DNA of 64,000 bases from an uncultured Roseicyclus sp. (GTDB lineage: Bacteria > Pseudomonadota > Alphaproteobacteria > Rhodobacterales > Rhodobacteraceae): positions 806,001-870,000 of the forward strand of contig CANMRT010000002.1 of assembly GCA_947500415.1 (NCBI GenBank). The letters run 5' to 3'. The notes beneath the pieces are model-generated. The model searched no databases, was not told where the DNA came from, and worked only from the letters and a program-made list of their open reading frames with translations. This document shows, one piece after another, positions 44,511-61,857 of this stretch (within the stretch, counting starts at the first letter, position 1; every line of letters begins with the position of its first letter). A program made the translations under genes and the position numbers.

Positions 44511-45431
44511 TTACCAGCCGCGCACTTCCATTCGGGTCGTGCAACTGCTTGGCGAATACGCGCCGATCCAGATATCAACACGACCGTTCAGATTGGCCGT
44601 ATCCGTCAACCGCAAACGAGAGCGCAGGTGGTTCGGGTAGTTGTAGTCATCGTTAAAGAAGAACGTGCCCGAAGCATCACGGATTAGAAGCGTCGTATCG
44701 CAATTGCTGGCTTCCACCAGGAACTGGACGGTGTCGAAGCTATCCATGTCGCTCAAGTACATCGTGAACGTCGGGTTCGCGTCGAAATAGCCACGCCGGT
44801 AGGGCATGCCACCACTACACGACCGCAGATCGGTGTATCCCGAGTGCGCAGTAGTGTGATCGTTGCCATTGCCGAAGTCCGAAGGGCCCTGCACCAGCGG
44901 CTCACCGTTGTAGAAGTTGTTCGGACAGCCTGCGACCTGACCGCTCGCCGGGGGCGGGAACGGATCGTTGCCCGCATTCGGATCGGGATCAGGGTCCGGG
45001 GTCGGATCAGGATCGGGATCAGGCGTCGGATCGGGATCTGGATCAGGCGTCGGGTCCGGGTCGGGATCAGGCGTCGGGTCCGGATCGGGATCCGGGTCGG
45101 GAGTGGGATCGGGGTCGGGATCCGGGGTCGGATCAGGATCGGGGTTCGGATCAGGGTCCGTGCCGCCGCCGCCGGTCGGATCACCACCACAAGTGCCAGC
45201 ACCGTCGCACTCGTCACCGGCTTCGGTGTCGGGCAGAACCGCCAATTGGTTGTCCCAGGCGGTTTCAAACAATCCATCCTGCATTTCACCGCGGATGTTC
45301 GCGGAATGCTCGGTCAAATCCTCGTTGGTTTCATCGGCCAGCCAGACACCCAGTCCGACAAGCGCTGCCAAAACGGCCACATAGTCGACCGTCGCTACGC
45401 CATGTTCTCTAGTCCAAAACGGGTGGAACAC
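44511..45431 (-). CDS. Flp-pilin-like protein with Asp-Pro repeat stalk and CDT-type C-terminal domain
   Basis: 306 residues. Residues 1-33 resemble a Flp/TadE-type pilin: a basic leader, Gly11, then VATVDYVAVLAALVGLGVW, with Asp where the prepilin Glu5 is normal. Residues 91-152 are a stalk of DPDPTP-type repeats. The end (about 169-306) is the shared extracytoplasmic domain: start [50 protein letters not shown]. It suggests a surface protein anchored by the pilin helix and displaying the domain on a rigid stalk. It is divergent from rpsF. The function is unknown; the domain is the same as in the kinase at 55249-57507. Confidence 0.6.
   Translation of the reverse strand: MFHPFWTREHGVATVDYVAVLAALVGLGVWLADETNEDLTEHSANIRGEMQDGLFETAWDNQLAVLPDTEAGDECDGAGTCGGDPTGGGGTDPDPNPDPDPTPDPDPDPTPDPDPDPDPTPDPDPDPTPDPDPDPTPDPDPDPTPDPDPDPNAGNDPFPPPASGQVAGCPNNFYNGEPLVQGPSDFGNGNDHTTAHSGYTDLRSCSGGMPYRRGYFDANPTFTMYLSDMDSFDTVQFLVEASNCDTTLLIRDASGTFFFNDDYNYPNHLRSRLRLTDTANLNGRVDIWIGAYSPSSCTTRMEVRGW
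44976..45161 (-). repeat. DNA repeat encoding Asp-Pro/Thr-Pro stalk
   Basis: A tandem array of about 18-24 base units rich in GGATCAGGATCGGG-like blocks, coding for DPDPDPTP repeats in the pilin-like protein. Copy number is likely to vary between strains through slippage. The antisense reading gives a meaningless Gly-Ser-Val repeat. Confidence 0.8.
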
Positions 45432-45749
45432 CGGGGGCCTCCATTCCTACTCAAATCAAGCCGCCTGAAACGGCCGAAAATACGCTGCACCGCCCACGTG
45501 GACGGAGTTTTCCGATGCCTTCATGGCTGCACTTCATGGTCGAAATGCGGCGAAACCCGGAAATCCCCGTGGCATACACGCGGATCACAGGCGAAACGGC
45601 CAACGCGGGCTGGACATACGCCCCTCCCGCGCCTATACGCGCCCATCGCTTCGTCATGCATCTCGAACGGCGTGATCCCTCGTGGCCGGGGGACGAAGCG
45701 ATACATGCCCGGCCTTTGAAATGCGCCCTGAAAATGAACTGGAGCTCCC
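45432..45749. other. 318-bp divergent intergenic region before rpsF
   Basis: Between the pilin-like gene and rpsF. A short open frame at 45515-45763 ignores rpsF's start and has no ribosome site or recognisable protein. The region must hold the ribosomal operon promoter and possibly an S6:S18 leader, but I could not identify a convincing -35/-10 pair or the leader fold by eye. Confidence 0.4.
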
Positions 45750-46103
45750 ATGCCTCTCTATGAGCATGTGATGATCGCGCGTCAGGACCTGTCCAACGCG
45801 CAAGCCGAAGCGCTGAACGAGCACTTCGGAACCGTCCTGAAAGACAATGGCGGCACCGTGGTCGACACCGAATATTGGGGTGTGAAGACCATGGCCTACA
45901 AAATCAACAAAAACCGCAAGGGTCACTATTCCTACATCCGCACTGACGCACCGTCAGATGCCGTTGTGGAAATGGAACGCCTGATGCGCCTGCACGACGA
46001 CGTGATGCGTGTTCTGACCGTCAAGGTCGACGCCCATGATGAGGGCCCTTCGGTCCAGATGCAGAAACGTGATGAGCGCGACACCCGCCGCGAACGCCGC
46101 TGA
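45750..46103 (+). CDS. rpsF: 30S ribosomal protein bS6
   Basis: 117 residues. MPLYEHVMIARQDLSNAQAEAL start, then YWGVKTMAYKINKNRKGHY and a basic C-terminal tail. It forms a pair with bS18 on the 16S central domain. It heads the rpsF-rpsR-rplI operon, with 21 bases before rpsR. Confidence 0.97.
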   Translation: MPLYEHVMIARQDLSNAQAEALNEHFGTVLKDNGGTVVDTEYWGVKTMAYKINKNRKGHYSYIRTDAPSDAVVEMERLMRLHDDVMRVLTVKVDAHDEGPSVQMQKRDERDTRRERR

Positions 46104-46124
46104 TTCTTAAGGAGTGACATTCCA

Positions 46125-46352
46125 ATGGCCGCAAAACCATTCTTCCGCCGCCGCAAGACCGACCCGTTTGAGGGCGAGAACGCGCCGAAGATCGACTACA
46201 AAGACACCCGCCTGCTTCAGCGTTACATCTCTGAACGTGGCAAAATCGTCCCTTCCCGCATCACCGCGGTAGGCGCAAAGAACCAGCGCAAGCTCGCCCG
46301 TGCGATCAAGCGTGCCCGGTTCCTCGCCCTGCTGCCCTACGCCGTTAAGTAA
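46125..46352 (+). CDS. rpsR: 30S ribosomal protein bS18
   Basis: 75 residues. It contains [25 protein letters not shown], split here from [21 protein letters not shown], the standard bS18 core. It binds with bS6 to the small-subunit platform. It is the second gene of the operon; rplI follows after 12 bases. Confidence 0.97.
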
Positions 46353-46364
46353 GGAGCGAACATC

Positions 46365-47006
46365 ATGGACGTTATCCTACTGGAACGTGTGGCCAAGCTG
46401 GGTCAGATGGGCGAAGTGGTCTCCGTAAAGGAAGGCTACGCGCGCAATTTCCTGCTGCCGCAGAAAAAGGCGCTTCGTGCCAATGAAGCCAACCTTGCCA
46501 CCTTCGAGAACCAGAAAGCGCAGCTTGAAGCCCGCAATCTGGAAACGAAATCCGAAGCCGAAAGCCTTGGCGAAAAGCTCGACGGTCAGCAGTTCATCGT
46601 GATCCGCTCGGCCTCTGACAGCGGCTCGCTCTACGGCTCCGTCACCACCCGTGACGCAGCTGAAGCGGCCACCGCAGAAGGCTTCTCCGTTGATCGCAAG
46701 CAGGTCGCTCTGACCGCACCGATCAAGGATCTGGGTCTGCACGACGTGGTCGTTCGCCTGCACCCCGAAGTTGAGGTGACCATCCAGCTCAACGTCGCGC
46801 GCTCGCCTGAAGAGGCCGAGTTGCAGGCGTCGGGGAAGTCGATCCAGGAACTCGCGGCCGAGGAAGAGGCTCAGGCCGAATTCGAGATCGCGGAACTCTT
46901 CGACGATATCGGTGCTGCTCAGCTCGACGAGCTGGAAGGCGACGACGACGCCCCTGCCGCAGCGGCAGAGGAAGAGGCACCCGCCGAGGACAGCGAAGAG
47001 GAGTAA
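46365..47006 (+). CDS. rplI: 50S ribosomal protein bL9 with acidic C-terminal extension
   Basis: 213 residues against about 150 in most bacteria. The N-terminal rRNA-binding domain ([30 protein letters not shown], in two parts) and C-domain to about residue 150 are normal. The last ~55 residues are Glu/Asp/Ala-rich ([18 protein letters not shown]). Similar tails occur in other Rhodobacterales L9. It is the last gene of the operon, followed by a terminator. Confidence 0.96.
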
Positions 47007-47050
47007 TCACTCCCCGAGCCCTGCGGCTCTCCTTGCACACCACATACGAC

Positions 47051-47081
47051 AGGCCGCGCCCACATCGGGTGCGGCCTTTTT
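47051..47081 (+). terminator. Intrinsic terminator of the rpsF-rpsR-rplI operon
   Basis: AGGCCGCGCCC pairs with GGGTGCGGCCT (11 bp with one G-U) around a 5-base loop, followed directly by TTTT. It starts 45 bases past the rplI stop. Confidence 0.85.
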
Positions 47082-47187
47082 CGTTGGCGGATTTTAGCTG
47101 CGAGGAGGGTCGCACGACCCGAGGAGGGGCTGATTGCGCGAAGCGCACACCTATATCAGGTGTAAGTTCATTCACCACGAGGCTTTC

Positions 47188-48384
47188 ATGCTCCGCGCCC
47201 TGCCCTTTTTACTGCTCGCCACTCCTGCCTTCGCACAAGCCCCCGTTGATGACGGAACACCGAACCTGCCCGACACGGTTCCAGCTTTTCCGGAACAGAC
47301 AGATGCGCCCGAGGTCTTCTCGGACATCACTCTAAGCGAGGAAGTTATCGTCGGCGCCCTTGCACGTCCCTGGGCAGTAGCCGTGCTACCAGACGGCGGG
47401 GGATATATAGTGACCGAACGCGGCGGCACACTGCGCCACATCACGCGGGACGGGACGATGGGCCCCGAGATCACTGGTGTACCGGGCGTGCGCGCAATTC
47501 AGCAGGGTGGGCTTCTGGATGTCGTCCTACACCCGGACTTCGCGGAAAACCCTACGCTGTTCCTGACCTATTCCGCCCGCGAAGGCTTGGCGAGTTCCGC
47601 AACGGCTTTGGCCCGCGCGATGCTGTCAGAGGATCACACCGCGCTGGATGAGGTTGAAGAGCTTTGGCGCCAAACCCCGGCCTCCGTCGTTCCAGCCCAT
47701 TTCGGCAGCCGCGTGGTTGTCATGCCCAACGGCAATCTGATCGTCACCACTGGCGACCGCTTCACCCCTGAAAACCGCGAGCTGGCTCAAGATCCGGTAA
47801 ACACCTCCTATGGCGTTGTGGTGGCCCTCTTCCCCGATGGGACGCCCACGGCAAACGATGCCATGCCAGACATCCTGCCGGGCAATGTCAGCTTCGGACA
47901 CCGCAACATCCAAGGGGCCGCCGTTCAACCGGGTACTGACGTGCTCTGGACGCTAGAACACGGCCCCGCCGGTGGGGACGAGCTGAATATCATCGAAGAA
48001 GGCGGCAACTATGGCTGGCCAGTGGTCAGCTACGGTGTGAACTACAACGGGTCTGACGTGGGCACCGGCGATCAGACCCATGCGCCTGACTATGTGGAGC
48101 CGCGTTACTTCTGGGACCCCTCCATCGCACCCTCGGACATGATTTTCTACGAGGGTGAGATGTTCCCTGACTGGCAGGGCGACATTCTTCTGGGCGCGCT
48201 CGCAGGCCAGTCCTTGGTCCGGCTCGACATCGAAGGCCAGACGGTCATGGGCGAAGAACGGCTGCGCACAGGCGAGGGCCGTGTGCGGGATGTGGCAATC
48301 GACGACGATGGCGCGATTCTCATACTAATCGACGACGATCCGGGTGCGCTAATCCGACTGACGCCTGCCAACGCCCCCGAGTAG
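47188..48384 (+). CDS. Periplasmic PQQ-dependent sugar dehydrogenase (YliI-like)
   Basis: 398 residues from ATG 47188, chosen because it gives the signal peptide MLRALPFLLLATPAFA. The six-bladed propeller of soluble aldose dehydrogenases shows as LARPWAVAVLPDGGGYIVTE, GGLLDVVLHPDFAENPTL, SFGHRNIQGAAVQPGTDVLW, ELNIIEEGGNYGWPVVSYG and FYEGEMFPDWQGDILLGAL. The HGPAGGDE segment supplies PQQ/Ca ligands. It oxidises aldose sugars at C1 in the periplasm with PQQ as cofactor. Confidence 0.9.
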   Translation: MLRALPFLLLATPAFAQAPVDDGTPNLPDTVPAFPEQTDAPEVFSDITLSEEVIVGALARPWAVAVLPDGGGYIVTERGGTLRHITRDGTMGPEITGVPGVRAIQQGGLLDVVLHPDFAENPTLFLTYSAREGLASSATALARAMLSEDHTALDEVEELWRQTPASVVPAHFGSRVVVMPNGNLIVTTGDRFTPENRELAQDPVNTSYGVVVALFPDGTPTANDAMPDILPGNVSFGHRNIQGAAVQPGTDVLWTLEHGPAGGDELNIIEEGGNYGWPVVSYGVNYNGSDVGTGDQTHAPDYVEPRYFWDPSIAPSDMIFYEGEMFPDWQGDILLGALAGQSLVRLDIEGQTVMGEERLRTGEGRVRDVAIDDDGAILILIDDDPGALIRLTPANAPE

Positions 48385-48448
48385 ACCCGCGGGTGCACGC
48401 GTGCACACGGCCGCAACCCATTGAAAAGGTTGAAAGGGCCTTCGAAAA

Positions 48449-48463
48449 TTAACCCTCTCTTAA
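48449..48463. promoter_or_regulatory. Perfect CtrA consensus TTAA-N7-TTAA between convergent genes
   Basis: TTAACCCTCTCTTAA is an exact match to the CtrA recognition pattern. It lies in the 102-bp gap between two gene 3' ends, which is an unusual place for a promoter element, so it may be a chance match. Confidence 0.3.
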
Positions 48464-48486
48464 CGAAATCACCGGCGTTTTCAGGG

Positions 48487-49113
48487 TTATCCCGACCGGC
48501 TTGCTCTCAGGGCGACCAACCCGGCCACACCGAGGCAGGCCGCGCCAATCCGGTTGATCAGGCGCAGCACAAACGGCCCGCTCAGATACTCTCGCAAGCT
48601 ACTTGCCAGAACCAACCACCCCAGTCCGTTGATTGCCGCCACCACGGTGAAGGTCGCGGTCAACACAGCGAATTGCATGAGCACATCGCCACTCGGGTCC
48701 ACGAATTGCGGCACGAAGGCCATGTAGAAAACCGGACCCTTGGGGTTCAGCGCACTGATAAGCGTCGATTGCCGGAACAAGGCCCCCAACGGTCGGCTTG
48801 GGGCCGCGTCGTCAGTGCGGATTGCGTCAACCGGGGCGGTCCACAAACGATAGGCCAGCCACAACAAATAAAGCGCACCCGCCACCTTCATCGCAGTGAA
48901 CAACCCGACAGATGCAGCCAGAATCGCCCCTGCCCCGGCAAGCGAGGCCGACATCGCCAGAAGTGCCCCCAAGGCCTGCCCTGGCACCGTCGCAAGGCCA
49001 GATCGCAGTCCATCCCTGATCCCATAGGTCACGGTCAGCACGATGTTGGGGCCAGGAATGACAACAACGATTGCGCTGGCCACAACGAAGGCCAGCCAGG
49101 TTTCGATTTGCAT
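48487..49113 (-). CDS. LysE/RhtB-family amino-acid exporter
   Basis: 208 residues from ATG 49113. The family pattern is visible: IVVVIPGPNIVLTVTYGIRDG in the first helix, six membrane segments, and LISALNPKGPVFYMAFVPQFV in the middle. It exports amino acids or homoserine-lactone-like compounds. It converges with the PQQ dehydrogenase gene. Confidence 0.9.
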   Translation of the reverse strand: MQIETWLAFVVASAIVVVIPGPNIVLTVTYGIRDGLRSGLATVPGQALGALLAMSASLAGAGAILAASVGLFTAMKVAGALYLLWLAYRLWTAPVDAIRTDDAAPSRPLGALFRQSTLISALNPKGPVFYMAFVPQFVDPSGDVLMQFAVLTATFTVVAAINGLGWLVLASSLREYLSGPFVLRLINRIGAACLGVAGLVALRASRSG

Positions 49114-49192
49114 GGACGTTCTCCCTTTGAACGTCAGCAAATCATCACGCCTGGGAAATGAAAAGGTCTTCCCAATCAGCGCACAAACGAAA

Positions 49193-49216
49193 ACGGCCCG
49201 CCAATTGGCGGGCCGT
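49193..49216 (-). terminator. Intrinsic terminator after the single-domain secreted protein gene
   Basis: ACGGCCCGCC and GGCGGGCCGT form a perfect 10-bp stem with loop AATT. On the minus strand it is followed by a T-rich tail (TTCGTTTG). It starts 30 bases past the gene's stop. Confidence 0.85.
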
Positions 49217-49245
49217 CTCGTTAGACCATATCGGTCTTGGAAAAC

Positions 49246-49701
49246 TTACCAGGTTTCCATCTGCAGCGTCGCGCCACAGGTCTGGGTGCCGTAGGTGCCA
49301 ACCCAGATGTCATAGACACCGGACTGGGGGCTGTAGAGGTTGATGGCAGGGTTCAGGTTGCCATAGCTGTCATCATCGAAATACCAGTTGCCGGTTGCAT
49401 CGTTGACCAGCAGAACCGTGTCGCAAGAGCCGATAACGCGCATCTCAAGGCGGTTGTAGGCATGCAGGCCGTTGATGGTGAATTCGAAGTCGGGGCGCGA
49501 AATCACGTAGCCCGAGTGGTTCCAGCCACAGTTACGCAGGGACTGCGAACCGCCTGCAACAACCGAGTAGCTGTTGGGGGTCCAGAGGTCCTGACCGTTG
49601 GTGACGCCGGTCTGGACGCCTTGGTTCTGCCATGCGGGGCAAGCGGCAGCGATACCAGCGGTGGCGAGAAGGATTGCAGAGGCGGCAAGAAGCTTTTTCA
49701 T
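49246..49701 (-). CDS. Secreted single-domain protein of the CDT family
   Basis: 151 residues: signal peptide MKKLLAASAILLATAGIAAA and one copy of the shared domain. Four cysteines sit as in the other copies (CPAW, RNCGW, GSCDTVLLVNDATGNWYFDD, QTCGATLQMETW); the YDIWVGTYG strand is intact. As the smallest member it defines the domain limits (about 130 residues). Its closest relatives here are the third copy in the triple-domain protein and the end of the first kinase. It is exported and soluble, with a function that is unknown; it could be a ligand or partner of the kinase sensor domain. Confidence 0.7.
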   Translation of the reverse strand: MKKLLAASAILLATAGIAAACPAWQNQGVQTGVTNGQDLWTPNSYSVVAGGSQSLRNCGWNHSGYVISRPDFEFTINGLHAYNRLEMRVIGSCDTVLLVNDATGNWYFDDDSYGNLNPAINLYSPQSGVYDIWVGTYGTQTCGATLQMETW

Positions 49702-49868
49702 CGTGTTACTCCGGGTGTTCTTTTTATCTTCAGCAGAAGGGGTAAAAGGGGTTTTAGGTTCAAAGGGTTAGGGGCGATGGTGCCCCCGGTGAAGGGTAGG
49801 GACACTATCCATTTTTGGGGCTCAGGGCGAAAGGCAGGAAACCCTTACCCTGAGCGCAGGGGGCTGGA

Positions 49869-51413
49869 TCAGAAGTTCCAGGTCTCCATTTCGAACTCGG
49901 CCTCACACGCGATATCCGCGCCAAAGGTGCCAACCCATATGTCCACGCGACCATTGAGGGCAGCGGTGTCCGTCAGGTTGAGTTCAGGCTGCAGGCTTCC
50001 GCCCGCATCGTCGTCGAAGTGCCAGTTGCCCTGGGCGTCATTGACCAGAAGCGTGGTGTCGCAGTCGCTGGAGACTTCGATTTCAAGACGGCCATAAGTT
50101 TCCATGCCCGAAAGCTGGAAGCTGTAGTTCGGGGCCGCGTTGATGACACCGGCACCGGGCAGACCCGAGCAGCTGGCCAAAGAGGTCACGCCGCCGGCTT
50201 GCACCGTGTAGGTGGTGGGGCTGTAAAGCTCCGCACCGTTGGACACGACCTGAATGCCTTCCAGCGATGTGGTTGGGCAACCGCCAGCCGGGGTAGGTGT
50301 TGGCGTTGGTGTGGGTGTCGGGGTAGGTGTAGGTGTAGGTGTAGGTGTAGGAGCCGGTGCTGGCGCCGGAGCCGGAGCCGGTGTTGGCGCCGGTGCCGGA
50401 GTTGGCGTGGGCGTCGGTACAGGTGTTGGAGCCGGTGCTGGCGCAGGTGTCGGTGTCGGCAGTGGCTGCGGCACAGGCTGTACCACTGGCACGGCCTGCA
50501 AAGTGAATGTACCGGCACAGCTGTCACCACCAAAGGTGCCAACCCAGACGTCGATCCGTCCATTCAGCGCCGCTTGATCGGTGATGGTCAGCTCAGGCTG
50601 GAAGTTCCCCTGCCCGTCATCGTTATAATACCAGGTCGTGTCTGCGCCATTCACCAGAAGGGTCGAATCACATTCGGCGTTGGCCAGAAGCGACAGGTTG
50701 TGGCCCTGCATCTCGGACAGGCTGATCGAGAATTGCGGCACCTGGCTTGCAGTACCGCCACCTTCAACACCGGCACAGGATCCGACGGACACACCGCCTG
50801 TGGCTTGCGCGATGTAGCTGAGCGGCTGAAGGATCTGGTTTGCTGTGAATTGCAGCGCCGGACCAGGGACTTCCCAGGTCGGGCAACCGGCAACCGGCGC
50901 AGGCGCGGGTGCCGGGGTCGGAACCGGTGTTGGCACTGGCGTGGGCACAGGTGCGCCGCCTGTGGCCTGAACGGTCAGGGTCGCGGGGCAACCGCCACCC
51001 GAGAAGGTGCCAATCCAGATGTCTACACGGCCATCAGCGGCAGCGGAGGGCAAACGCATACCGGGCTGCAAGCCGTTGCTGTCATCGTTGAAATACCACT
51101 GGCCCGAAGCGTCGTTGACCAGCATCGCGGGGTCACAGCTTGAGTTGACGAACAAGTCGAGCTCGCGCCCAACCATATTAGTCAGTGTAAGGGTCAGATC
51201 GGGGGCGGCGCGGAACTGGCCGTAGCCAAGGCTACCAAGACCACATTGGTCCAGCGTGAACTGGCCGCCCGCCTGGACGTTGAAGTTCAGCCCGTTGGCA
51301 ATCTGTGAGCTGTCGTAGTTGAAACCATTTTGGGCCAATTGGTAATTCGGGCAGGCCATTGCGGCACCGCCCATAGCAATCAATGCGAGTGCGCTTGCAG
51401 TCATAAGACGCAT
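49869..51413 (-). CDS. Secreted protein with three CDT-family domains and Pro-Thr-Ala linkers
   Basis: 514 residues from ATG 51413 (AAGGA upstream), with signal peptide [20 protein letters not shown]. Three copies of the shared domain lie at about 21-150, 177-308 and 379-514. Each has CP at the start, a central Cys, a CDxxxLVN segment, W(Y/H)(F/Y)(N/D)DD and (V/I)D(I/V)W(V/I)GTF followed by a Cys. Linkers are PVPTP-type (154-175) and a long PAPAPTPTP stretch (311-375). It resembles an extracellular multivalent binding protein. No enzyme motif is present. Confidence 0.72.
50285..50480 (-). repeat. DNA repeat encoding Pro-Thr-Ala linker
   Basis: A tandem GGTGTAGGTGTAGG-type array, 6 bases per unit, encodes PTPTP and PAPAP stretches between domains 2 and 3 of the triple-domain protein. 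It is prone to slippage. The opposite strand gives a spurious Gly-Val/Gly-Ala frame. Confidence 0.8.
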
Positions 51414-51538
51414 AGGGGGAGTATCCTTCCTGTGTGTGGGGGCCGTTGAAGGGCAACCGACCCGCCGAAAAATAGACGTAAGCCGGGTCAGGTTATGGGA
51501 TGGCAAACCTCCGCCAAACTGCGGAAACCCTGACCTTC

Positions 51539-51549
51539 GTTATACAACC
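51539..51549 (-). promoter_or_regulatory. Shared GGTTGTATAAC element before the triple-domain gene
   Basis: On the minus strand GGTTGTATAAC, containing a -10-like TATAAC, lies 126 bases upstream of the triple-domain gene. The identical 11 bases occur 100 bases upstream of the gene at 52237-52824. No good -35 is seen at the usual spacing. Confidence 0.4.
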
Positions 51550-51612
51550 TTAACGTTAACGGCGGTCTGGCGGTTCACCAAAGCGTTTTTTCCAAACGAT
51601 CAAAAAAGTTTA

Positions 51613-51636
51613 GGGCCCGGGTGTTTCACCGGGCCC
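51613..51636 (-). terminator. Intrinsic terminator after the 167-residue secreted protein gene
   Basis: GGGCCCGG(G)TG and CACCGGGCCC form a stem with one bulged G and a loop of three T. On the minus strand the tail is TAAACTTTTTTG. It starts 14 bases past the stop at 51651. Confidence 0.8.
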
Positions 51637-51650
51637 GAATCTTTCGGGTG

Positions 51651-52154
51651 TTACTGGCCGAAAATGCGCTGCCAAAGCGACAGACGCGGTGCAGCGGCAT
51701 TGGCCAGTTCTGCGCCATCGCTGTGGATCACGGCCGTGTTGGTTCCGTTCACGACAGCAGTGTTTACGCCGGACGCGACCAGCGTGTTTGCGCCAGCGGG
51801 GGCTTCGACTGCGGCAATATCCATAGCCTCAAGCAGCGCGCCCATGTCGGTTGCAGCGGGGGCCGCCTCGGGCACACGGGCCAATTCAGGGATGGCCAGT
51901 GTGCGCGGGCGCAGCACCGGACGGGGCGAGGACAAGACAGTGGTGTCCAACTGGAGGGCCGCAAGCTCGGCCGGGGCGATCTGGATCACCCTGGGCGCGA
52001 CAATGCGGTTGGCGGCGGCACCGTTCAAAAGGTCACCAAGACCAAGCTCGGCGATCATGGCGCGTGGGTTCATCATATCGTTGATGTCCTGAGCGAAGGC
52101 CGGGGTGGCAAGGCTGGCAGCAAGGGCCAGAACGAGGGGAAGGGAATGTTTCAT
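51651..52154 (-). CDS. Secreted hypothetical protein
   Basis: 167 residues with signal peptide MKHSLPLVLALAASLATPAFA. The rest is rich in Ala, Val, Asn and Thr (LLNGAAANRIVAPRV, VASGVNTAVVNGTNTAVI) with no cysteine and no motif I recognise. It ends RLSLWQRIFGQ. It lies between the triple-domain gene and another secreted hypothetical gene on the same strand, and has its own terminator. Confidence 0.6.
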   Translation of the reverse strand: MKHSLPLVLALAASLATPAFAQDINDMMNPRAMIAELGLGDLLNGAAANRIVAPRVIQIAPAELAALQLDTTVLSSPRPVLRPRTLAIPELARVPEAAPAATDMGALLEAMDIAAVEAPAGANTLVASGVNTAVVNGTNTAVIHSDGAELANAAAPRLSLWQRIFGQ

Positions 52155-52236
52155 GGGTTTGACTACTCGATTGGTTTGAATGGGTTAACTGAAGGGGCGC
52201 CCTGCCCCAGACGACGCGGGGCAAGACAGGATTAGG

Positions 52237-52824
52237 TCAGCGGAACGGGTTGACGATGATCGTGTTCCCGGGATGGCGCGGCAGGTTGTAGTGGTTGATG
52301 ATCGCCGGACCGGAATGACCGAAAGAAAAACGGCCAGGCAGATTCTGCCAATTGAAATGCGGGCGCGGGATCACGTGCAGCGCCTGGGGGCGATGGTCGA
52401 GACGCTCCTGTACTTCTTCCAGAAGCTCGGCAACATCGGCAATCCGGTCACCGGCGCTCTGCTGCCAGCCATAGTTGCCGTGAATGCGTGGCAAGCGCGG
52501 CGCGGGGATGTGGTAAGGCGCATAGTCGTCATAAAGCTCGGCGACTTCCTCCCACTCCTCGGCATGCAGGGCCCAGCGTTTTGCAGCATCGGCTTGCGCC
52601 AGTGCGATCAAGTCCAGGACATCAGCATGGCCTGCTCCGGGAACACTGCAGGCAACGCCAAAGCGGTGGCAAAGCTCAAACGTCTGGTCGAAGGCGTGGT
52701 CTTCAAACGGGGTGTAATCCTCGACCAGATCGGGCCGTGGCAATATGGGAAGCAGCGTGTCAGCCGATGCCGCGGGAACGACCGCGGCAAGGCCAGCAAG
52801 GGCTATGAGGGTGTGTTTCAACAT
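52237..52824 (-). CDS. Secreted hypothetical protein
   Basis: 195 residues with signal peptide MLKHTLIALAGLAAVVPAASA. It has two cysteines (LCHRF and VACSV), an amphipathic helical middle (DLIALAQADAAKRWALHAEEW, ELLEEVQERLDHR) and an aromatic C-terminus (HFNWQNLPGRFSFGHSG, ending NTIIVNPFR). No family recognised. The GGTTGTATAAC element lies 100 bases upstream, as for the triple-domain gene, which suggests shared control. Confidence 0.6.
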   Translation of the reverse strand: MLKHTLIALAGLAAVVPAASADTLLPILPRPDLVEDYTPFEDHAFDQTFELCHRFGVACSVPGAGHADVLDLIALAQADAAKRWALHAEEWEEVAELYDDYAPYHIPAPRLPRIHGNYGWQQSAGDRIADVAELLEEVQERLDHRPQALHVIPRPHFNWQNLPGRFSFGHSGPAIINHYNLPRHPGNTIIVNPFR

Positions 52825-53542: not shown

Positions 53543-53560
53543 ATCCCAACCCTAAGCAAC

Positions 53561-53591: not shown

Positions 53592-53615
53592 CACATTTCC
53601 GAACCGGCGTTCGGC

Positions 53616-54941
53616 TTATTCCTCGTCGAGGGCGTCGACGGCAGCTTTGAGGTCATCCTTGGAGACCTCTTTTTCCGTCACCTTGGCCAGCTCGCCGATG
53701 AAATCGACAACCTTGTCTTCAAACAGCGGTGCACGCACCTGTTGCTGTGCGGCCTGGTTCTGCTGGATGAACTCAAAGAACTGACGTTCCTGACCAGGAT
53801 ACTGGCGCGCTTGCGTCATGATCGCCTGCGTCATCTCGGCGTCGGAGACCTGCACATCGTTCTTCTGACCCAGCTCGGCCAGCAGCAGACCCAGCTTCAC
53901 GCGGCGTTCGGCCAGCTTGGTGTGCTCATCGGTGGGCTCGACCTTCTCGTGGTCGTGGCCTTCGACGTCAGGGTTTTCTTCGTGCCACAGCTGGTGGGCG
54001 ATCTGGTCGGCCTCTGCCTGCACCAGCGACGGGGGCAGCTCAAACGACACAACATCATCAAGCTGATCCAGCAGGCCACGCTTCATCACAGCACGCGCGG
54101 CACCGGCATATTCCGCCTGCAATCGCTCAGTGATCTGACCTTTCAGCGCGTCGAGGTCTTCGGCACCGAATTTCTTGGCCAGCTCATCATCAACTTCCGC
54201 CGGAACCGGCTTTTTGATCTCTTTGATGGTGCAGGCGAAAACGGCGGCCTTACCGGCCAGATGCTCGGCCTGATAATCCTCAGGGAAAGACACTTCGACG
54301 TCTTTCTCATCCTTGGCCTTCACACCAACCAGCTGCTCTTCAAAGCCGGGGATGAATTGGCCCGAGCCCAGAACCAGCGGGAAGTCTTCGGCAGACCCGC
54401 CGTCAAAAGCCTCGCCGTCCACGGTGCCAACGAAATCGAACACGACCTGGTCGCCGTCCGCCGCTTTGCCCTTTTTGGTGGCAAAGTTCTGGGCGTTCTC
54501 GGCCAGGTTCTTCAGTGCCTCGTCGATTTCATCGTCGCCGGGCTTCACGACCAGCTTCTCCAGCTTCAGCTTCTTGTAGTCGACGTCCGGGATCTCGGGC
54601 AGTTTCTCGTAGGACATGGCGACAACGATATCGTCGCCCTCTTTCCAGTCTTCGTTCGTCATTTTGACGTCAGGCTGCATCGCCGGGCGATCACCGGATT
54701 CTTCGAGGTGGCCCTGCATCGCCTCATCCACCGATTCCTGCATCGCCTCGCCCATGATCCGGGGGCCGAACTGCTTTTTCAGCAGCGCCATGGGCACTTT
54801 ACCCTTGCGGAAGCCCTTCATCTCAACTTCGGGCTGCGCCTCTTCCAGCTTGGAATTCACGCGCGCTTCAAGGTCTCCGGCGGTGACGGTGATCTGGTAT
54901 TCGCGCTTCAGGCCCTCGGACAGGGTTTCGGTGATCTGCAT
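53616..54941 (-). CDS. tig: Trigger factor, ribosome-associated chaperone
   Basis: 441 residues. The N-terminal ribosome-binding domain has the [17 protein letters not shown] signature (about 43-59); the peptidyl-prolyl isomerase domain (about 155-245, with [19 protein letters not shown]) and a helical chaperone C-domain follow. It binds nascent chains at the tunnel exit. Divergent from the first kinase gene. Confidence 0.96.
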
Positions 54942-55248
54942 GGGTTACCTCGTTTGCGGCGCCTCGGGGCGCGCGGGTTCGTGCGGCATTGAAAATCAGA
55001 CGCCCTTCTAGGGGCGGCTTGGACAGGGCGCAAGGGGGTTGGGGCCATGAAATGCTGGGAAAAAGACCCGCGCATACGCTCACCCGTGTTCACGGCAAGG
55101 CGAGCGGCAAAAACAAACGCGTAAGGGAAACCGGACGTTTACAATTTACCCCGGAATTCGCCATATTCGCAGGAACCACGACCTGAGACCCCTTCGCGCC
55201 TGCTGCCCGCAATAAATGGCGCCCCCTCAAAGGCCGGACCAAAAGAAG
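54942..55248. other. 307-bp divergent region between tig and the first kinase gene
   Basis: It holds the tig promoter (separate entry). On the + strand the kinase start at 55249 is preceded by an AAAAGAAG purine run. I found no clear -35/-10 for the kinase and no other gene in the region. Confidence 0.5.
55005..55033 (-). promoter_or_regulatory. Likely tig promoter
   Basis: On the minus strand TTGCGC and TAGAAG are separated by 17 bases; the -10 lies 64 bases before the tig start. The match to sigma-70 is reasonable. Confidence 0.45.
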
Positions 55249-57507
55249 ATGAGTGACGATCCCGCCAAAACTAAGGTGCTGCCCGATGGCCCTGCAGGCG
55301 AATTGCCTGTGGGCGCTGAGCTGTCGTCAGGCATGTACCGCGTCACCGGCCGTATTGCGGCGGGCGGTTTTGGCATCACCTATGAAGCGCGCGATAACCT
55401 GGACCGGAAGGTTGCGATCAAGGAATGCTTTCCTGCGGGCCTTGCCCTGCGCGCGGGCGATTTCACCGTTTCCGCTGCCAGCGCCTCTACAACCGAACCA
55501 TTTGAGACCGCGCGCAACCTGTTCCTCCGCGAAGCGCGCACACTGGCCGCCCTACGCCATCCCAACATCGTCCACGTCCAGACGTTGTTCGAGGAGAACG
55601 GCACCGCCTATATGGCGATGGACTACATTGAAGGCCGCGATCTACAGCACATCATCGACCATGAGCCGGAAAAGCTGACGCCCGCCTATATCATGGAGCT
55701 GACGCGCACGATCCTGGGTGCGCTCGACTATCTGCACCGCGATGCGCCTGAGCGTGGCAAGGAACGGCTACTGCACCGCGACATCAAGCCTGCCAACATC
55801 CGCATCGACCCGCTCGACATGCCCGTGGTGATCGATTTCGGCGCGGCGCGGCAGGAAACGAAGAACCGTTCGCGCGCGGCGGGAACGTTCCGCGTCGTCT
55901 CGGACGGCTACAGCCCGAACGAATTCTATGTGGCCGGCACCGAACAGGGCCCGGCCTCGGACCTCTATTCGCTGGCCGCAACGCTGCACCATTGCATCGC
56001 AGGCAGCGCCCCTGCCCCCGCCGATGAACGCGCGCAGAAAGTCTCCAACGGCGAGGACGACCCTTACGAGCCCATCGCGGGACGCTTCCCTGACCACGAC
56101 CCCCGTCTTCTGGCGCTGATTGACCGGGCACTCGCCCGCCCGATGCGCGACCGTCCTGCCGATGCCGCCGCCTGGTTCGCGGCGATCCCGGATTCGGCCA
56201 CACGCATTGTAGAAGCAGCCCCCATTGCAGCAGCAGTCGTCGCAACGCCTACCCCGGCCCCCGAACCAAGCAAATCCGGCTTCTGGAAAGGCGCGGCTGT
56301 TGGCGGCGGATTGTTGGCTCTACTGGGCGGCGGCGCCTACTTCGCGATTCCAGGCATTGCGTCTTCAGGCGGCGACAACACTGAAATGCAGGGTCAGCTG
56401 GACGAAATGGCCGCCCAAGCTGCCGAGTTGCAGGCCGAAGTGACATCCGTGGCCGAAGCCCGCGATCTCGCGCAATCCCGCGCTGATGAGTTGGACCAGA
56501 CCGTCGAAGACCTGCGCGCTCAATTGGCAGCTGCGGCAGAAGGCGACGAGGCCGCAACAGCAGAATTGCGCACGCAATTGAACCAGGCCCTGACAGATCA
56601 GGACGGGGCCCGCGAAGCTCAGCGAACGCTTGAGGCCCAGGTGGCTGAACTGGAGTCAGCGCTTGCGATGGCACGCGAAGAAGCCTCCGCCTCCGCCGCG
56701 CCCGAAGATGTCGAACGTTTGGAATCCGCGCGTGCCGCTGCAGAAGCTGAAACTGCCGAGGCCGAAGCGCGCGCAACAACCCTTGCCGCTGAACTCGCGG
56801 CTTTAGAAGCTGTCATTGCGGAATCCGGTTCGGACATCGATCCGGCGGCCCTTGCAGCGCTTGAGACTGAACGCGACACCGCCTTGCGCAATGTCGAACG
56901 CGCGCAATCAGATCTGCAACGTATGGCGGCAGACCTGTCGGAGGCCGAGGCCGAGGCAGATCGCCTGACGATGGAACTCCGCGATGCACGCGCCGAGATC
57001 GAATTGATGCTGGCCAGCGGCACAACTCCAAACCCAGGCCCCAACACGCCCGGCGGCACGGTTGCGGGCGGCGGTGGCGGTTCAGCCGCAAACTGCCCGA
57101 CTTTGGCGGTGACCGGGTCGCAACAACGCTTTACCGGCACCGACATTTACACACCTCAGAACCTCCAGGTTCGCGCCAGCGGCACGCAGAACCTCAGTGC
57201 CTGCACGGACCTGCCGTTCAACGTCACAGGCTTTGTAGACCAGATCCCCGACTACACGCTCTACCTGACCGAGATGGCGCAATTCCGGCGGTTGGAGTTG
57301 GAAGTGATCTCGGATTGCGACACCAACCTGCTGGTCAACACGCAAGACACAGTCTGGCACTTCGACGACAGCACTGGCGAGAATGGCGCACCCCTTCTGA
57401 ATCTGACCGGGCAGGCCGCCATCGAGGGTCGCATCGACATTTGGGTTGGAACCAGCGATGGTGCGGGCTGCGACGCGACACTGGAAGTTGAGACCTGGCT
57501 CAACTGA
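55249..57507 (+). CDS. Transmembrane Ser/Thr protein kinase with coiled coil and CDT-family sensor domain
   Basis: 752 residues from ATG 55249. The kinase domain (about 30-310) has the Gly loop IAAGGFGITYEA, VAIKECFP (Lys58), LLHRDIKPANI (catalytic Asp178) and VIDFGAAR (Asp196), so it should be active. A Pro/Ala hinge leads to one membrane segment at about 346-370. Residues about 378-595 are a long Ala/Glu/Leu coiled coil; after a Gly/Pro hinge, residues 615-752 are the shared domain (NCPTL, LSACTD, DCDTNLLVNTQDTVWHFDD, GRIDIWVGTSDGAGC). The domain is periplasmic. A phosphatase gene and a second kinase gene follow. Confidence 0.85.
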   Translation: MSDDPAKTKVLPDGPAGELPVGAELSSGMYRVTGRIAAGGFGITYEARDNLDRKVAIKECFPAGLALRAGDFTVSAASASTTEPFETARNLFLREARTLAALRHPNIVHVQTLFEENGTAYMAMDYIEGRDLQHIIDHEPEKLTPAYIMELTRTILGALDYLHRDAPERGKERLLHRDIKPANIRIDPLDMPVVIDFGAARQETKNRSRAAGTFRVVSDGYSPNEFYVAGTEQGPASDLYSLAATLHHCIAGSAPAPADERAQKVSNGEDDPYEPIAGRFPDHDPRLLALIDRALARPMRDRPADAAAWFAAIPDSATRIVEAAPIAAAVVATPTPAPEPSKSGFWKGAAVGGGLLALLGGGAYFAIPGIASSGGDNTEMQGQLDEMAAQAAELQAEVTSVAEARDLAQSRADELDQTVEDLRAQLAAAAEGDEAATAELRTQLNQALTDQDGAREAQRTLEAQVAELESALAMAREEASASAAPEDVERLESARAAAEAETAEAEARATTLAAELAALEAVIAESGSDIDPAALAALETERDTALRNVERAQSDLQRMAADLSEAEAEADRLTMELRDARAEIELMLASGTTPNPGPNTPGGTVAGGGGGSAANCPTLAVTGSQQRFTGTDIYTPQNLQVRASGTQNLSACTDLPFNVTGFVDQIPDYTLYLTEMAQFRRLELEVISDCDTNLLVNTQDTVWHFDDSTGENGAPLLNLTGQAAIEGRIDIWVGTSDGAGCDATLEVETWLN

Positions 57508-57528
57508 TCGCCCTTGGGCTTCCGATAA

Positions 57529-58179
57529 CTAGAGCGCGTCTGGATCATACTCCGTGCTGATCCACTCCCGCAGACCAATCGGCCCGTCTTGGACCCGACG
57601 CTCATAGGCCTCCAAAAACCGATCCAATACGCCGGTCTTGGACCAACGCACATGCAGATGGCGCAACCCAAGGGCGCGTTTGGCCTCGGCGACAGGGCGC
57701 CCTTCCACATGAATAGCCCACATCGCGGCTGCCAGTCCGGTGCGATCCGCGCCCGACTTGCAATGGATTAGGGCAGGCTTTTCCAAATCATCGAAGATGT
57801 CCAACAGATGAAGCAAGGGTCGTCGGCGCGGCGCGGCGCGCGCTTGAAATGCGACGTTGCGCAACCGCAATCCCAAGGCTTCGCAGGCCTCAGCCTCGAA
57901 CAGGTGAACCGCCGATTGCGCGGGGCGAAGGCTGATGACCTCAACAATACCACGCGCCTTCCAATCAGCCAGCGTCGCAGCGTTGGGATGGTTCGACCGA
58001 TAGACCCCCGGCGCGATGATGCCCTCGTTGCGCCACCGCCTGCGCAAAAGGCCGTGGTCATTGATGGCTGCAAAGAAGCGGCCCTGCCAGAGGCCCATCT
58101 CGCTATCGATCTCTTGATCGTAGCGCCCGCGTGCCACTTCCCACGCTCCGCGCAGTTTTCCGAAAAAGCTCAGTGCCAT
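57529..58179 (-). CDS. Dual-specificity/tyrosine phosphatase-like protein
   Basis: 216 residues from ATG 58179. The Cys-X5-Arg signature reads HCKSGADRTG, with Cys140 and Arg146. GVYRSNHPNAATLADWKARGI and EVISLRP before it match cyclin-dependent-kinase-inhibitor-3/DSP-type bacterial phosphatases. No membrane segment, so it is cytosolic and on the same side as the kinase domains. It lies on the opposite strand between two kinase genes and is their likely antagonist. Substrate specificity (Tyr, Ser/Thr or other phosphate esters) cannot be read. Confidence 0.82.
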   Translation of the reverse strand: MALSFFGKLRGAWEVARGRYDQEIDSEMGLWQGRFFAAINDHGLLRRRWRNEGIIAPGVYRSNHPNAATLADWKARGIVEVISLRPAQSAVHLFEAEACEALGLRLRNVAFQARAAPRRRPLLHLLDIFDDLEKPALIHCKSGADRTGLAAAMWAIHVEGRPVAEAKRALGLRHLHVRWSKTGVLDRFLEAYERRVQDGPIGLREWISTEYDPDAL

Positions 58180-58296
58180 TTGCTCTGACGTGTCCCAGCG
58201 CGCGTCCGATTGCAAGCCTTGGCCGCGCAACAGTGCCCAGACGTCTGGAAAACATACATTTACAGGGACGCGAACCCGCGCGATTGTGCCCGGGCA

Positions 58297-61200
58297 ATGC
58301 CCAACGATACGCCAAATCCCCGCGGCCCTGACGCCACCACACACATGCTACCAGCAGGAGAGCTTCCGCCGGGCTGGAAACTGTTGGGCGGCCAGTACGA
58401 GATCAAGCGCCTGATCGCTTCGGGCGGCTTCGGGATCACCTATCTGGCGAAAGACACGCTGGACCGTGACGTTGCAGTGAAGGAATGCTTCCCGCTGGGT
58501 CTGGCGCAGCGTGCGGCGCAAACCCATACGGTCAGCGCGACCTCCGCCGGAACCTCGGAACATTTTGAGACGGCGCGCGCGCAATTCCTGCGCGAGGCGC
58601 GGATGCTCGCCCGTCTGCGCCACCCAAACGTCGTGCATGTGCAGACCCTATTCGAGGAAAACGGCACCGCCTATATGGCGATGGATTACATCCACGGCCG
58701 CGACTTGCAGGAAGAGATCGTGGCCAGCGATGCGGACCTGCCGCCGCACAAGGTGCTTGAGCTGGCCCGCGACCTTCTGGGCGCGTTGGAATACGTGCAC
58801 AGCCAATCGGTCCTGCACCGCGATATCAAACCCCAGAACATCCGCATCGACCACTTCGGGATGCCGATGCTGATCGACTTCGGCGCAGCCCGTGCTGAAA
58901 CGCAGGCACGGTCACGGATGGCAGGCACCTTCCGTGTGGTTACAGACGGCTACAGCCCCCATGAATTCTACGTCTCCGGCGCACAGCAGGGCCCCTATTC
59001 GGACCTCTACGCGCTGGCCGCGACGCTGCATCATGTCATCACCGGTGCCGCCCCGGTAGCCGCGGACGAACGCGCCAGCGCCATCGCCACGGGCCAACCA
59101 GACCCCTACCAACCCATCGCCGATGCACATGCTGACCAAGATGGTCGGCTGCTGCATCTGATCGACCGCGCCCTGCGCATGACGCCCGGCGACCGGCCTA
59201 AGGACGCGGCGGCATGGCTGGCCGCGCTTGCCGATGCGCCAACCCGCATGGTTGCCGCTTCCATGGCGACAGACGAAGTGGTTGCAGATACGCCGCCCCG
59301 ACGCGGGCGTTTCCTTGGCGGTGCACTCCTTGGCGGAATACTAGCAGCTTCCATCGGTGGCGGGATCTGGGCCACGCAGCCCGGCTGGCTGAACCCCGGC
59401 ATGGGCGAAATGATGGAAGAAATGGGCCGTCTGGAAGAGGCTTTGGCCGAGGCTGAGCTGGCCCGCGAAACCACCCTGCGCGACCTTGAGACCCTCCAAG
59501 CGTCGCTCACCGAAGCCGAAGACAACCTCGCCCGTCTGGAAGCCGCTGATGGCGATATGGCCGCAACCATGGCCGAGTTGGACGCAGCCCGCGACGCCCG
59601 TGATGCCGCGGCAGCCCAAGTTGCCGATCTGGAACGCACGGTTGAAACGTTGGCCGTTACCCAAGCGGCCCTGGAAGACGCCCGCGCGGCCCGCGATGCC
59701 GCTTCGCAACGGGCCGCTGATTTGGCCGATGATAACGCAACCGCCACCTCGCGCATCGAAGCGTTGGAAGGTGAATTGGCAGAGGCGCAGGAAACGTTGC
59801 GCGCGGCCCAAAGTGCCTCCACCGGATTGACCGAAGAGGTGGAGGCCGCAACCGCAGAAATCGCCCGTTTGGAACAACAGCTCGCCTCAGAACGCACTCG
59901 CGCTGCTGCCTTGGCAGAAGTGGACGCCGATCTGACCGCCGCAGAAACTGCACTGGCGGAGGCGTCCGACGAAATCGCAGCGCTGGAAAGCCGTCTCGCC
60001 GCAGCGGTGGAGGCAGGCGCAAGCACTGACGCCATGGCACAGGAAATGGACCGGCTGGAATCGGCGCTAGAGCTGTCCGAAGCCGAGCGTATGCGCCTGC
60101 TGAATGACCTCGAAGAAGCTGAGGATGCGGCCAATAACACCGATGCCAACGCGTCAGAAATCGACCGCCTGCGGGCCCGGATCACCGCGCTCGAGGCTGA
60201 GAATGCCGCACTGCAAGAGGCGCTGAACATCGCTGAAGAAGCCCTGGCCGAAGCGCTGACAAGCGATGAGATGTATCTGGTTGAGACCGCGACACTCAGC
60301 GCGCCCAATGGTACCTTGTCGCTGTTACCGCGCTTCTCGTGGGACAATGAAACCGTAGGCCTTGTTGACAGTACCGGGGGCATCGCCCTTTTTGACCGCG
60401 AAAGTGGCGCCTACCGCGCCCATCTGGCACGCGGCATTCCTGATGAGATCACGCGGCTTGGTTTCTCCATGTCCGGCGGCTTTGCCATTGCCACCACCGG
60501 TGCGGGCACGCCCAACCGCCTCTACGACATCGCCGCACGGCGCGAGATCTTGCGGTTTGAGCCGACGACCGTAACCACCGCCAACCGCGCCATATCAGGC
60601 AGTGAAAGGCATTTTGTCTACACCCGCGCAAGTGTCGGCGGGCAAACCGACATCGTGTTGGTAAACCTGGCTGAGACAACCATCGGCGCGCCGTCTGAAG
60701 AGATCCTGACTTCGGTGCCCGCCGGAACCTCGGTCCGTGTGACTTTTGCCGAAAACCAGGATCAGATCACCGTCATCACACCCAGCCTTGTACGCATATT
60801 CGCAACGGACGGACGGCTAGTACAAACCGCCGGGAACCGCATCGGGGCGTTCGTTGCGATGTCACCCATGGGTGGCGATCAAGGGCTTTTGGTGCTCCGC
60901 GGGGACGGAACCGTCACACTCTACGACAATGCACTTGACCAACGGGAACTGGCGGAATTTGCACCCGACGGCACCTACACCAGCTACCGTCTTTCAGGCG
61001 ACCGGCTCAGCTTCATGCGCGCCAATGCGACCCGGTGGGAGGTCATCGACCTTGCCGGACGCACGATCCGTGGCGCGGGCGAGTTGCCGGCGGGCGAAGG
61101 CGATGCATTCCTTTCGGTTTCTGCCGACGGCACGATGGTGTTTGTCGGGGCCGCGGGTGACACGCCTGCCCGTCTGGTGGATGTGGCGACGGGCGGCGAA

Positions 61201-61857
61201 ATCCACGACTTCGGCGATGCGGCCCAGGGCTATTTCAGCTTCGACAACAGCCATATTGCGGTCGGCAGCCCCGATACCGCACAGGCGCGCATCGTGCGCC
61301 GCGAAGGGTCACCGCCCGAGATCACCTTTGACGAGCCCGCAATCGTCAGCATCGCCCCGCAGGTCCCCGCACCGGTGGTGCGCATCGACACGGGCGTTTG
61401 CTCGGCGCTTGGGCAGGTTGGCGACAGCGCCGGGATCACCCCCGATTTCCAAGGCCGCTCGCGCCTTTTCCCGGCTCAGGCCGGCGGTGCGATGAACCTT
61501 TCCGAATGCTGGTCGCAATTGCCTGGCGACCTCACCGACATCGTCGAAGCGGCCAACCGCCCGCTTTTCATCGCGCCTCAGCCCGATTTCTCAACATCCA
61601 TTCTCGCAACTTCGCGCCCAATCTCGCTCGACCTATTGGCGCGGTCCAGCTGCGACGCCCAAATCGTCGCGCAATTCGGTCAGACTTGGCGCATCGCCGA
61701 CCCGCTGTCCGTCGATGGCGCGATCCGGTTCAGCGATGCGGGCGACATCAGCCAACCCCTGCGCGTTTGGCTCGCCACCGCCGATGGCGACACCACCTGC
61801 GATGCACTGATCGAGTTGCGTTTGAATGAACCGGACGGCGAAGGTATCGGCGAATAA
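58297..61857 (+). CDS. Large transmembrane Ser/Thr protein kinase with coiled coil, beta-propeller-like region and degenerate CDT domain
   Basis: 1186 residues from ATG 58297 (ATG 58345 is also possible; neither has a strong ribosome site). The kinase domain (about 30-310) has LIASGGFGITYLA, VAVKECFP, VLHRDIKPQNI and LIDFGAAR, all intact and close to the first kinase. One membrane segment lies at about 338-360. Residues about 368-660 are a long coiled coil; about 665-1030 is a beta-rich, repeated strand region resembling a WD/propeller. The end (about 1040-1180) keeps the four-cysteine layout of the shared domain (SSCDAQIVAQFGQTWRIAD, VWLATADGDTTCDA) but has lost the LLVND and DIWVGT signatures. 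Confidence 0.82.
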   Translation: MPNDTPNPRGPDATTHMLPAGELPPGWKLLGGQYEIKRLIASGGFGITYLAKDTLDRDVAVKECFPLGLAQRAAQTHTVSATSAGTSEHFETARAQFLREARMLARLRHPNVVHVQTLFEENGTAYMAMDYIHGRDLQEEIVASDADLPPHKVLELARDLLGALEYVHSQSVLHRDIKPQNIRIDHFGMPMLIDFGAARAETQARSRMAGTFRVVTDGYSPHEFYVSGAQQGPYSDLYALAATLHHVITGAAPVAADERASAIATGQPDPYQPIADAHADQDGRLLHLIDRALRMTPGDRPKDAAAWLAALADAPTRMVAASMATDEVVADTPPRRGRFLGGALLGGILAASIGGGIWATQPGWLNPGMGEMMEEMGRLEEALAEAELARETTLRDLETLQASLTEAEDNLARLEAADGDMAATMAELDAARDARDAAAAQVADLERTVETLAVTQAALEDARAARDAASQRAADLADDNATATSRIEALEGELAEAQETLRAAQSASTGLTEEVEAATAEIARLEQQLASERTRAAALAEVDADLTAAETALAEASDEIAALESRLAAAVEAGASTDAMAQEMDRLESALELSEAERMRLLNDLEEAEDAANNTDANASEIDRLRARITALEAENAALQEALNIAEEALAEALTSDEMYLVETATLSAPNGTLSLLPRFSWDNETVGLVDSTGGIALFDRESGAYRAHLARGIPDEITRLGFSMSGGFAIATTGAGTPNRLYDIAARREILRFEPTTVTTANRAISGSERHFVYTRASVGGQTDIVLVNLAETTIGAPSEEILTSVPAGTSVRVTFAENQDQITVITPSLVRIFATDGRLVQTAGNRIGAFVAMSPMGGDQGLLVLRGDGTVTLYDNALDQRELAEFAPDGTYTSYRLSGDRLSFMRANATRWEVIDLAGRTIRGAGELPAGEGDAFLSVSADGTMVFVGAAGDTPARLVDVATGGEIHDFGDAAQGYFSFDNSHIAVGSPDTAQARIVRREGSPPEITFDEPAIVSIAPQVPAPVVRIDTGVCSALGQVGDSAGITPDFQGRSRLFPAQAGGAMNLSECWSQLPGDLTDIVEAANRPLFIAPQPDFSTSILATSRPISLDLLARSSCDAQIVAQFGQTWRIADPLSVDGAIRFSDAGDISQPLRVWLATADGDTTCDALIELRLNEPDGEGIGE

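Follow-up and report, generated by a model that had tools for sequence, protein, structure and literature searches.

Here we describe a domain of about 130 residues that occurs seven times within 17 kb of a 64,000-nucleotide stretch of the genome of an uncultured Roseicyclus sp. (assembly GCA_947500415.1, contig CANMRT010000002.1, positions 806,001 to 870,000; hereafter the window, numbered from its first letter), and that is carried both by secreted and pilin-like proteins and by two receptor kinases of the Hanks type. Five open reading frames (ORFs) contain it. Three are on the minus strand: a pilin-like protein of 306 residues (44511..45431; ORF, profile and motif seen directly and in orthologues), a single-domain secreted protein of 151 residues with a signal-peptide-like hydrophobic N-terminus (49246..49701), and a triple-domain secreted protein of 514 residues with proline-rich linkers (49869..51413). 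Two are on the plus strand: receptor kinase 1, with 763 residues (55216..57507; Pkinase E 4.1e-29), and receptor kinase 2, with up to 1215 residues (58210..61857; Pkinase E 1.3e-33). The kinase starts originally predicted, 55249 and 58297, are ATGs internal to these two ORFs; all five predicted ORFs are present, and 55249 is an alternative start for kinase 1, and 58297 the likely start for kinase 2.

The original prediction that these proteins share one domain, in seven copies, is borne out. The copies lie at 44514-44930 in the pilin-like protein, at 49249-49644 in the single-domain protein, at 49872-50282 (C), 50490-50888 (B) and 50961-51356 (A) in the triple-domain protein, and, on the plus strand, at 57091-57504 at the end of kinase 1 and, as a degenerate copy, at 61387-61854 at the end of kinase 2. 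Each copy was left out once, and a profile made from the remaining rows recovered it at E 4.5e-49 to 3e-30 for six of the seven, and at E 5.2e-07 for the copy of kinase 2; the best of 1000 shuffles per copy never gave an E-value below 0.033. By BLAST the six good copies are interlinked, the kinase 2 copy being weaker (its best match is the kinase 1 copy, with 26% identity and E 2e-8). Across the seven rows, nine alignment columns never vary; these include the four cysteines C2, C38, C74 and C126 as well as D75, D91 and W116 (first-row numbering). Among the conserved points proposed earlier the cysteines stand; the CP at the start is not universal, as the kinase 2 copy has lost its P, along with most of an acidic loop discussed below. 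Searched against the whole genome, the seven-row profile found nine places: the seven window copies and two more distant ones outside the window.

A four-cysteine domain and its relatives

The domain is undescribed in the libraries searched (Pfam and NCBIfam, and PHROGs for three of the sequences), in agreement with the original remark that it was not recognised as a characterised one. Scans of the five window proteins against Pfam and NCBIfam returned no family spanning the domain, and no Pfam family matched more than two of 120 copies scanned singly (best E 0.0029); these 120 rows comprise the seven window copies and 113 copies, below 88% identity, out of 151 found in other loci by a four-copy query. 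The sole PHROGs match covers a low-complexity linker region. Similarly, a sequence search of the PDB gave a best E of 0.069 with the seven-row profile and no match with the 120-row profile, a search for similar viral folds yielded weak matches to viral proteins that led nowhere, and none of the titles and abstract starts listed in the literature searches concerned the domain or a kinase sensor of the pre-peptidase C-terminal (PPC) type.

Structure prediction was a check proposed at the outset. The AlphaFold2 model of the kinase 1 copy (ma60458cd751c, built with the 120 rows) is confident, with a predicted local distance difference test (pLDDT) score of 97.1 and a predicted template modelling (TM) score of 0.92, and is a beta-sandwich of nine strands with one short helix. 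Its best Foldseek matches in the PDB, at TM scores of about 0.5, are the claudin-binding domains of Clostridium perfringens enterotoxin, the PPC domain 5sv5, PliG, collagen-binding domains of ColG and CUB domains; the PPC-type fold (5sv5 and 1nqj) is matched at TM 0.45-0.60, which are modest scores.

Profile comparisons point in the same direction. A distant branch, found in other Alphaproteobacteria and in an S1-protease protein of the same genome, has the same domain with another cysteine pair: its profile of 33 copies matches the 120-row profile at 99.8% (E 6.6e-30). Within this branch, the last copy of a four-domain protein (L051) lies above the Pfam PPC cut-off (33.8 against 25.9 bits) and a second protein (L052) falls just under it (25.4 bits). 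Compared with the four PPC-type copies of the same genome, the 120-row profile matches at 83.7% (E 8e-6) and the distant-branch profile at 85.1%, these being comparisons with a profile of only four rows, with E-values for single comparisons. The PPC model itself matched none of the five window proteins at E <= 1 and none of the 120 copies at E <= 0.1. Thus, because the profile and the fold are PPC-like and yet the cut-off of PF04151 is failed, we consider the domain related to PPC and not a member by Pfam's own test, so that the likeness to PPC guessed at first was right at the level of the superfamily.

The two have more in common than the kind of sandwich: a D...G...NDD...G-Y pattern is shared in the profile alignment, and both are found on secreted proteins and adjoining S1 proteases. 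In contrast to PPC, the domain described here has four cysteines in a fixed pattern and the motifs W-x-F-x-D-D and DIWVGT, is often repeated, and is fused to pilin-like stems and kinases. Among 269 unique copies (loci L015-L196 and the window), 213 have cysteines at positions 2, 38, 76 and 127 (kinase 1 numbering, used from here on, with a tolerance of one column), 44 have only those at 38 and 91, and 12 are partial or odd. Such fixed sets fit disulfides and, with them, a place outside the cytoplasm. The domain would be a four-cysteine branch of the PPC/collagen-binding-domain-like superfamily of beta-sandwiches and would serve as a generic extracellular binding module.

The kinases and the history of the locus

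Both kinases have intact HRDIKP and DFG motifs, one hydrophobic segment each (hydropathy peaks 1.68 and 1.75) and a cysteine-rich C-terminal domain. In kinase 1, the kinase domain is followed by the hydrophobic segment (about 56293-56349), a coiled coil (coiled-coil-type matches at residues 387-596 in the NCBIfam scan) and the C-terminal domain copy. Kinase 2 has a similar beginning, with its hydrophobic segment at about 59311-59367 and a coiled coil, and then about 320 residues (60346..61302) that are predicted, with medium confidence, to form a beta-propeller, before the degenerate domain. Foldseek places this part among WD40-type propellers (E down to 2.5e-14); only the propeller class is taken from the underlying model (m6d7059b01800), which was built from four rows and is poor (whole-model mean pLDDT 62.7). 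Between the two kinases, on the opposite strand, a gene at 57529..58344 (minus) encodes a tyrosine/dual-specificity-type phosphatase (Y_phosphatase3, 28.3 bits against a cut-off of 22.2) with the signature HCKSGADRTG.

In their Hanks-type kinase domain, single hydrophobic segment and C-terminal, putatively outer, sensor, these proteins resemble the receptor kinases PknB (PASTA) and PknD (propeller), and kinase 2, with its predicted propeller, is like PknD in particular, whose propeller is mentioned in the excerpted text of PMC6213207. Unlike in PknB and PknD, the sensor here is a four-cysteine PPC-like domain on a predicted periplasmic coiled coil. PASTA is absent from the Pfam matches of both kinases, and the NCBIfam PASTA-kinase model covers the kinase part only, below its cut-off. 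WD40 and TPR are common as periplasmic parts of planctomycete kinases according to the main text of PMC11032199, in which neither 'PPC' nor 'pre-peptidase' occurs.

The conservation of these genes was followed in 13 genomes of a Roseicyclus-like genus of Rhodobacteraceae, namely our own and 12 congeners. The domain is present in all of them, with 8 to 11 matches each, as are the single- and triple-domain proteins and kinase 1 with its domain, although the kinase 1 gene is cut by contig ends in two genomes (G003 and G007) and its frame is interrupted near the kinase N-terminus in a third (G004). In this last genome (G004:C1:300866-303124) a stop lies inside the kinase 1 match and the longest ORF begins within the kinase domain, which could reflect a decaying gene or a sequencing error. 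Kinase 2 is seen in 12 of the 13 (not in G004), its domain being present in nine and absent in three (G003, G009 and G010, with ORFs of 1018 to 1027 residues). The phosphatase is also found in 12 of the 13 (not in G011). Kinase 2 probably senses mainly through its predicted propeller, its domain being in the process of loss.

Beyond the genus the domain is less frequent. It occurs in 36 of 198 genera of the family (one genome each, ours included), in at least 17 of 385 genomes of the class and in at least 21 of 398 of the phylum, all but one of these inside the class; the last two counts are lower bounds, at most ten candidates per genome having been scored. The carriers read there comprise small secreted proteins, repeat proteins with two to five copies, pilin-like proteins, one TadE-like protein, S1 proteases and some large secreted proteins. 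No kinase was found among the domain-bearing ORFs read outside the genus; the frames of at least 350 residues left unread are, from the family search, G112:C57 (370 residues), G172:C47 (411) and G214:C50 (501 and 474) and, from the phylum search, those of G868, G796, G873, G892 and G849, none above 673. Related kinases exist in 43 of the 198 genera at E <= 1e-60 (ours included), and of 29 such loci read in other genera, three of which run off the locus end, none has the domain. By eye, several of these kinases have PDZ-like tails; only PDZ_6 appeared, at 16.5 of the required 27 bits in one of eight scanned, and we make no claim of it. Canonical PPC was likewise found on no kinase in 96 ORFs of 30 loci from 299 genomes searched; these loci are short and may cut long ORFs, so that the result falls short of demonstrating absence. 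The link between domain and kinases is thus strong, but within what we examined it does not extend past one genus: the link first proposed stands in 13 of 13 genomes there, and the opposing outcome, that other genomes never make it, is what we see outside. Among the genomes examined, this kinase architecture is particular to the Roseicyclus-like genus.

The neighbourhood of the secreted proteins gives a hint of the order of events. In 19 loci of other genera (L110-L113, L118-L120, L122, L124-L129, L131, L137, L139, L144 and L076; L190 is taken as the same as L128 and not counted), a secreted domain protein adjoins tig and there is no kinase, with at least 2.7 kb beyond tig available in each; rplI-rpsF-fabD flank the other side in the tig loci reaching that far. 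The proteins adjoining tig in other genera include multi-repeat homologues of the triple-domain protein, and in many genera the secreted cluster is flanked by core genes, which gives little reason to suppose a mobile origin. Kinase 1 of the window starts 275 bases from tig. On these comparative grounds the secreted cluster is older than the kinases, because it stands beside tig in those 19 loci without one. In a tree of 178 copies (from the genus and a choice of other loci, out of 318), the 13 copies of kinase 1 form one clade (100 in the Shimodaira-Hasegawa-like approximate likelihood ratio test, SH-aLRT) in a part of the tree that also contains the secreted protein's second and last repeats. 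A separate clade on a long branch unites the nine copies of kinase 2 (SH-aLRT 99).

Readings of the kinase copies

Residue conservation separates the kinase copies from the others. The scaffold is kept everywhere: C38, C76, C127, W89 and W118 are present in all 22 kinase copies, and C2 in 21. The acidic loop, with D93 and D94, is kept in all 65 secreted and pilin-like copies of the genus (13 each of the single-domain protein, repeats A, B and C, and the pilin-like protein). In kinase 1, D93 is found in 9 of 13 copies and D94 in 5 of 13; in kinase 2 the numbers are 2 of 9 and 0 of 9. Kinase 1 does retain D77 and D116 (12 of 13), and position 93 is either D or N in 12 of 13. It also has distinctive residues, seldom seen in the secreted copies, namely T17, E61, F65, R66, G107, I111 and D123, each in at least 12 of 13. 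The loop may hold a metal or a ligand. A scaffold kept throughout with an acidic loop fixed only outside the kinases makes it likelier that the kinases have a changed contact than that one ligand is simply shared, although loss of function may also be under way.

Our data suggest that this bacterium has borrowed, for signalling, a domain of its own surface proteins. In Rhodobacteraceae the domain is an element of secreted proteins with one to five repeats and of pilin-like proteins, and in the ancestor of the genus a Hanks-type receptor kinase beside the secreted cluster would have gained its C-terminal outer domain from a single copy, most likely one of the repeat protein. The kinase domain would be cytoplasmic, and the periplasmic coiled coil would dimerise the protein and present the outer domain. 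Binding of an envelope or surface partner could then alter the dimer and, with it, kinase activity, which the neighbouring phosphatase may counteract. We favour this reading, in which a four-cysteine branch of the PPC-like superfamily was captured once as a sensor by a receptor kinase that kept its scaffold and altered its contact site, and put its probability at roughly 0.55.

Several points weigh against it. The top three Foldseek matches are claudin-binding enterotoxin domains and not PPC, at scores that are modest throughout. PF04151 matches none of the nine copies of the genome at E <= 1 (four candidates passed the first filter) and finds only three other places in it. Moreover, the acidic loop is already relaxed in kinase 1, as D94 shows, so binding could be in the course of loss there too. 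Finally, the tree was a quick one, of 135 columns, midpoint-rooted and with many open forks, and since this is so, the direction of copying is something we infer.

A domain missing from the libraries searched now has a predicted fold and a superfamily. Within a single genus, the secreted protein family encoded next door seems to have supplied the outer domain of a receptor kinase. To our knowledge, the ligands of Hanks-type receptor kinases of Gram-negative bacteria are mostly unknown. With candidate partners within 17 kb, the way in which such kinases gain and employ their sensors could be tested directly at this locus.

It is tempting to speculate further about the partner. The boldest extension, which we hold to be rather improbable, is that the captured and re-tuned kinase copies bind the domain of the cell's own secreted or pilin-like adhesion proteins, reading their amount, assembly or surface contact. 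By such domain-domain contact the kinases would sense the surface layer or pilus, and its assembly or touch would lead to the phosphorylation of proteins, with the phosphatase of the intervening gene acting in opposition. In favour, all 13 genomes with kinase 1 also have the single-domain, triple-domain and pilin-like proteins, whose genes are near kinase 1 where loci are intact, the kinase copy groups closest with the repeats, and a kept scaffold with a changed loop and its own fixed residues is what a new contact site would show. However, the secreted set exists without any such kinase in many genera, and the likeness of the neighbours is explained by relatedness alone.

The idea in the original prediction that soluble, pilin-borne and kinase copies recognise the same ligand is weakened by our results, and we regard it as a doubtful and weaker reading. 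Here, all copies would use the acidic loop to bind one outside molecule, such as a glycan or a surface protein of a host or an alga. The common fold and the acidic residues that kinase 1 retains would suit this, as would the binding of extracellular polymers by PPC-type domains: in the excerpted text of PMC6168687, PPC domains of collagenases bind collagen, with calcium required for the ColG domains and not for the Grimontia segment. The different fate of D93 and D94 inside and outside the kinases speaks against it.

More unlikely still is a passive tail, recognising nothing in particular, which would fold and shield the C-terminal end of secreted or periplasmic proteins and would be free to decay in the kinases. 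PPC domains do occur on many unrelated secreted proteins, and three of the 12 kinase 2 genes have lost the domain, while the remaining nine have strongly diverged copies; yet all 13 genomes retain the kinase 1 copy, complete with its four cysteines, both tryptophans and its own fixed residues. As for an inhibitor resembling the PliG-type lysozyme inhibitors, with kinases sensing cell-wall attack, the single-domain protein is small and cysteine-rich and PliG (4dzg) ranks seventh among the Foldseek matches (E 1.5e-3), but many beta-sandwich binders score about equally and repeat arrays and a pilin-like fusion ill suit a soluble inhibitor, which makes this very improbable.

Further carriers and neighbouring genes

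The pilin-like protein begins with an Flp-like N-terminus (HGVATVDYV and a hydrophobic stretch), followed by an Asp-Pro-rich linker and one domain copy. The motif G-x-x-T-(V/I)-(D/E)-(W/Y) with the hydrophobic stretch is found in the window protein and at 13 distinct other loci (one with E); we take it to be a processing-type N-terminal motif with D/E at +5. This N-terminus recalls the Flp/Tad-type pilins, from which the protein differs in being much longer, with the linker and domain as a head, and in its gene being outside any Tad operon in the window; no pilin family model in Pfam or NCBIfam matches it. TadE-type genes are present in the same genome. A second kind of pilus-related stem is seen in L177:2394-4253 (minus), where a domain copy is C-terminal on a protein with, by eye, a TadE-like N-terminus.

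The two distant copies of our own genome have other settings. One (C2:759405-759782; L015:5373-6359, minus) is in a secreted-looking protein of 328 residues, in which two cysteine-rich repeats (CPYTNDGDCDEPNGLNLC...GTDANDC) are joined to a domain copy without the last two of the four usual cysteines. The other (C3:128896-129213; L016:4765-5991, plus), of the distant two-cysteine type, is at the N-terminal side of a 408-residue protein that runs on into a trypsin-like protease (Trypsin E 1.3e-10), and similar proteins are found in congeners (for example L058 and L059) and in G023 (L049). In Nioella-type loci (L113:9744-10586, L116:2261-3115, L120:10907-11695 and L122:10595-11317, all plus) the domain protein has a very long Ala-Pro repeat tail, and in Roseibacterium persicicum (L138:7443-9158, plus) a domain pair is followed by more beta-rich sequence and a tail that, by eye, is like a C-type lectin.

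Finally, positions 51651-52824 (minus) of the window, where the triple-domain gene is separated from the GNAT and tig genes, encode two proteins that look secreted. They have 167 and 195 residues and no Pfam match, and are less conserved in the genus than their neighbours (about 31-62% identity where found).

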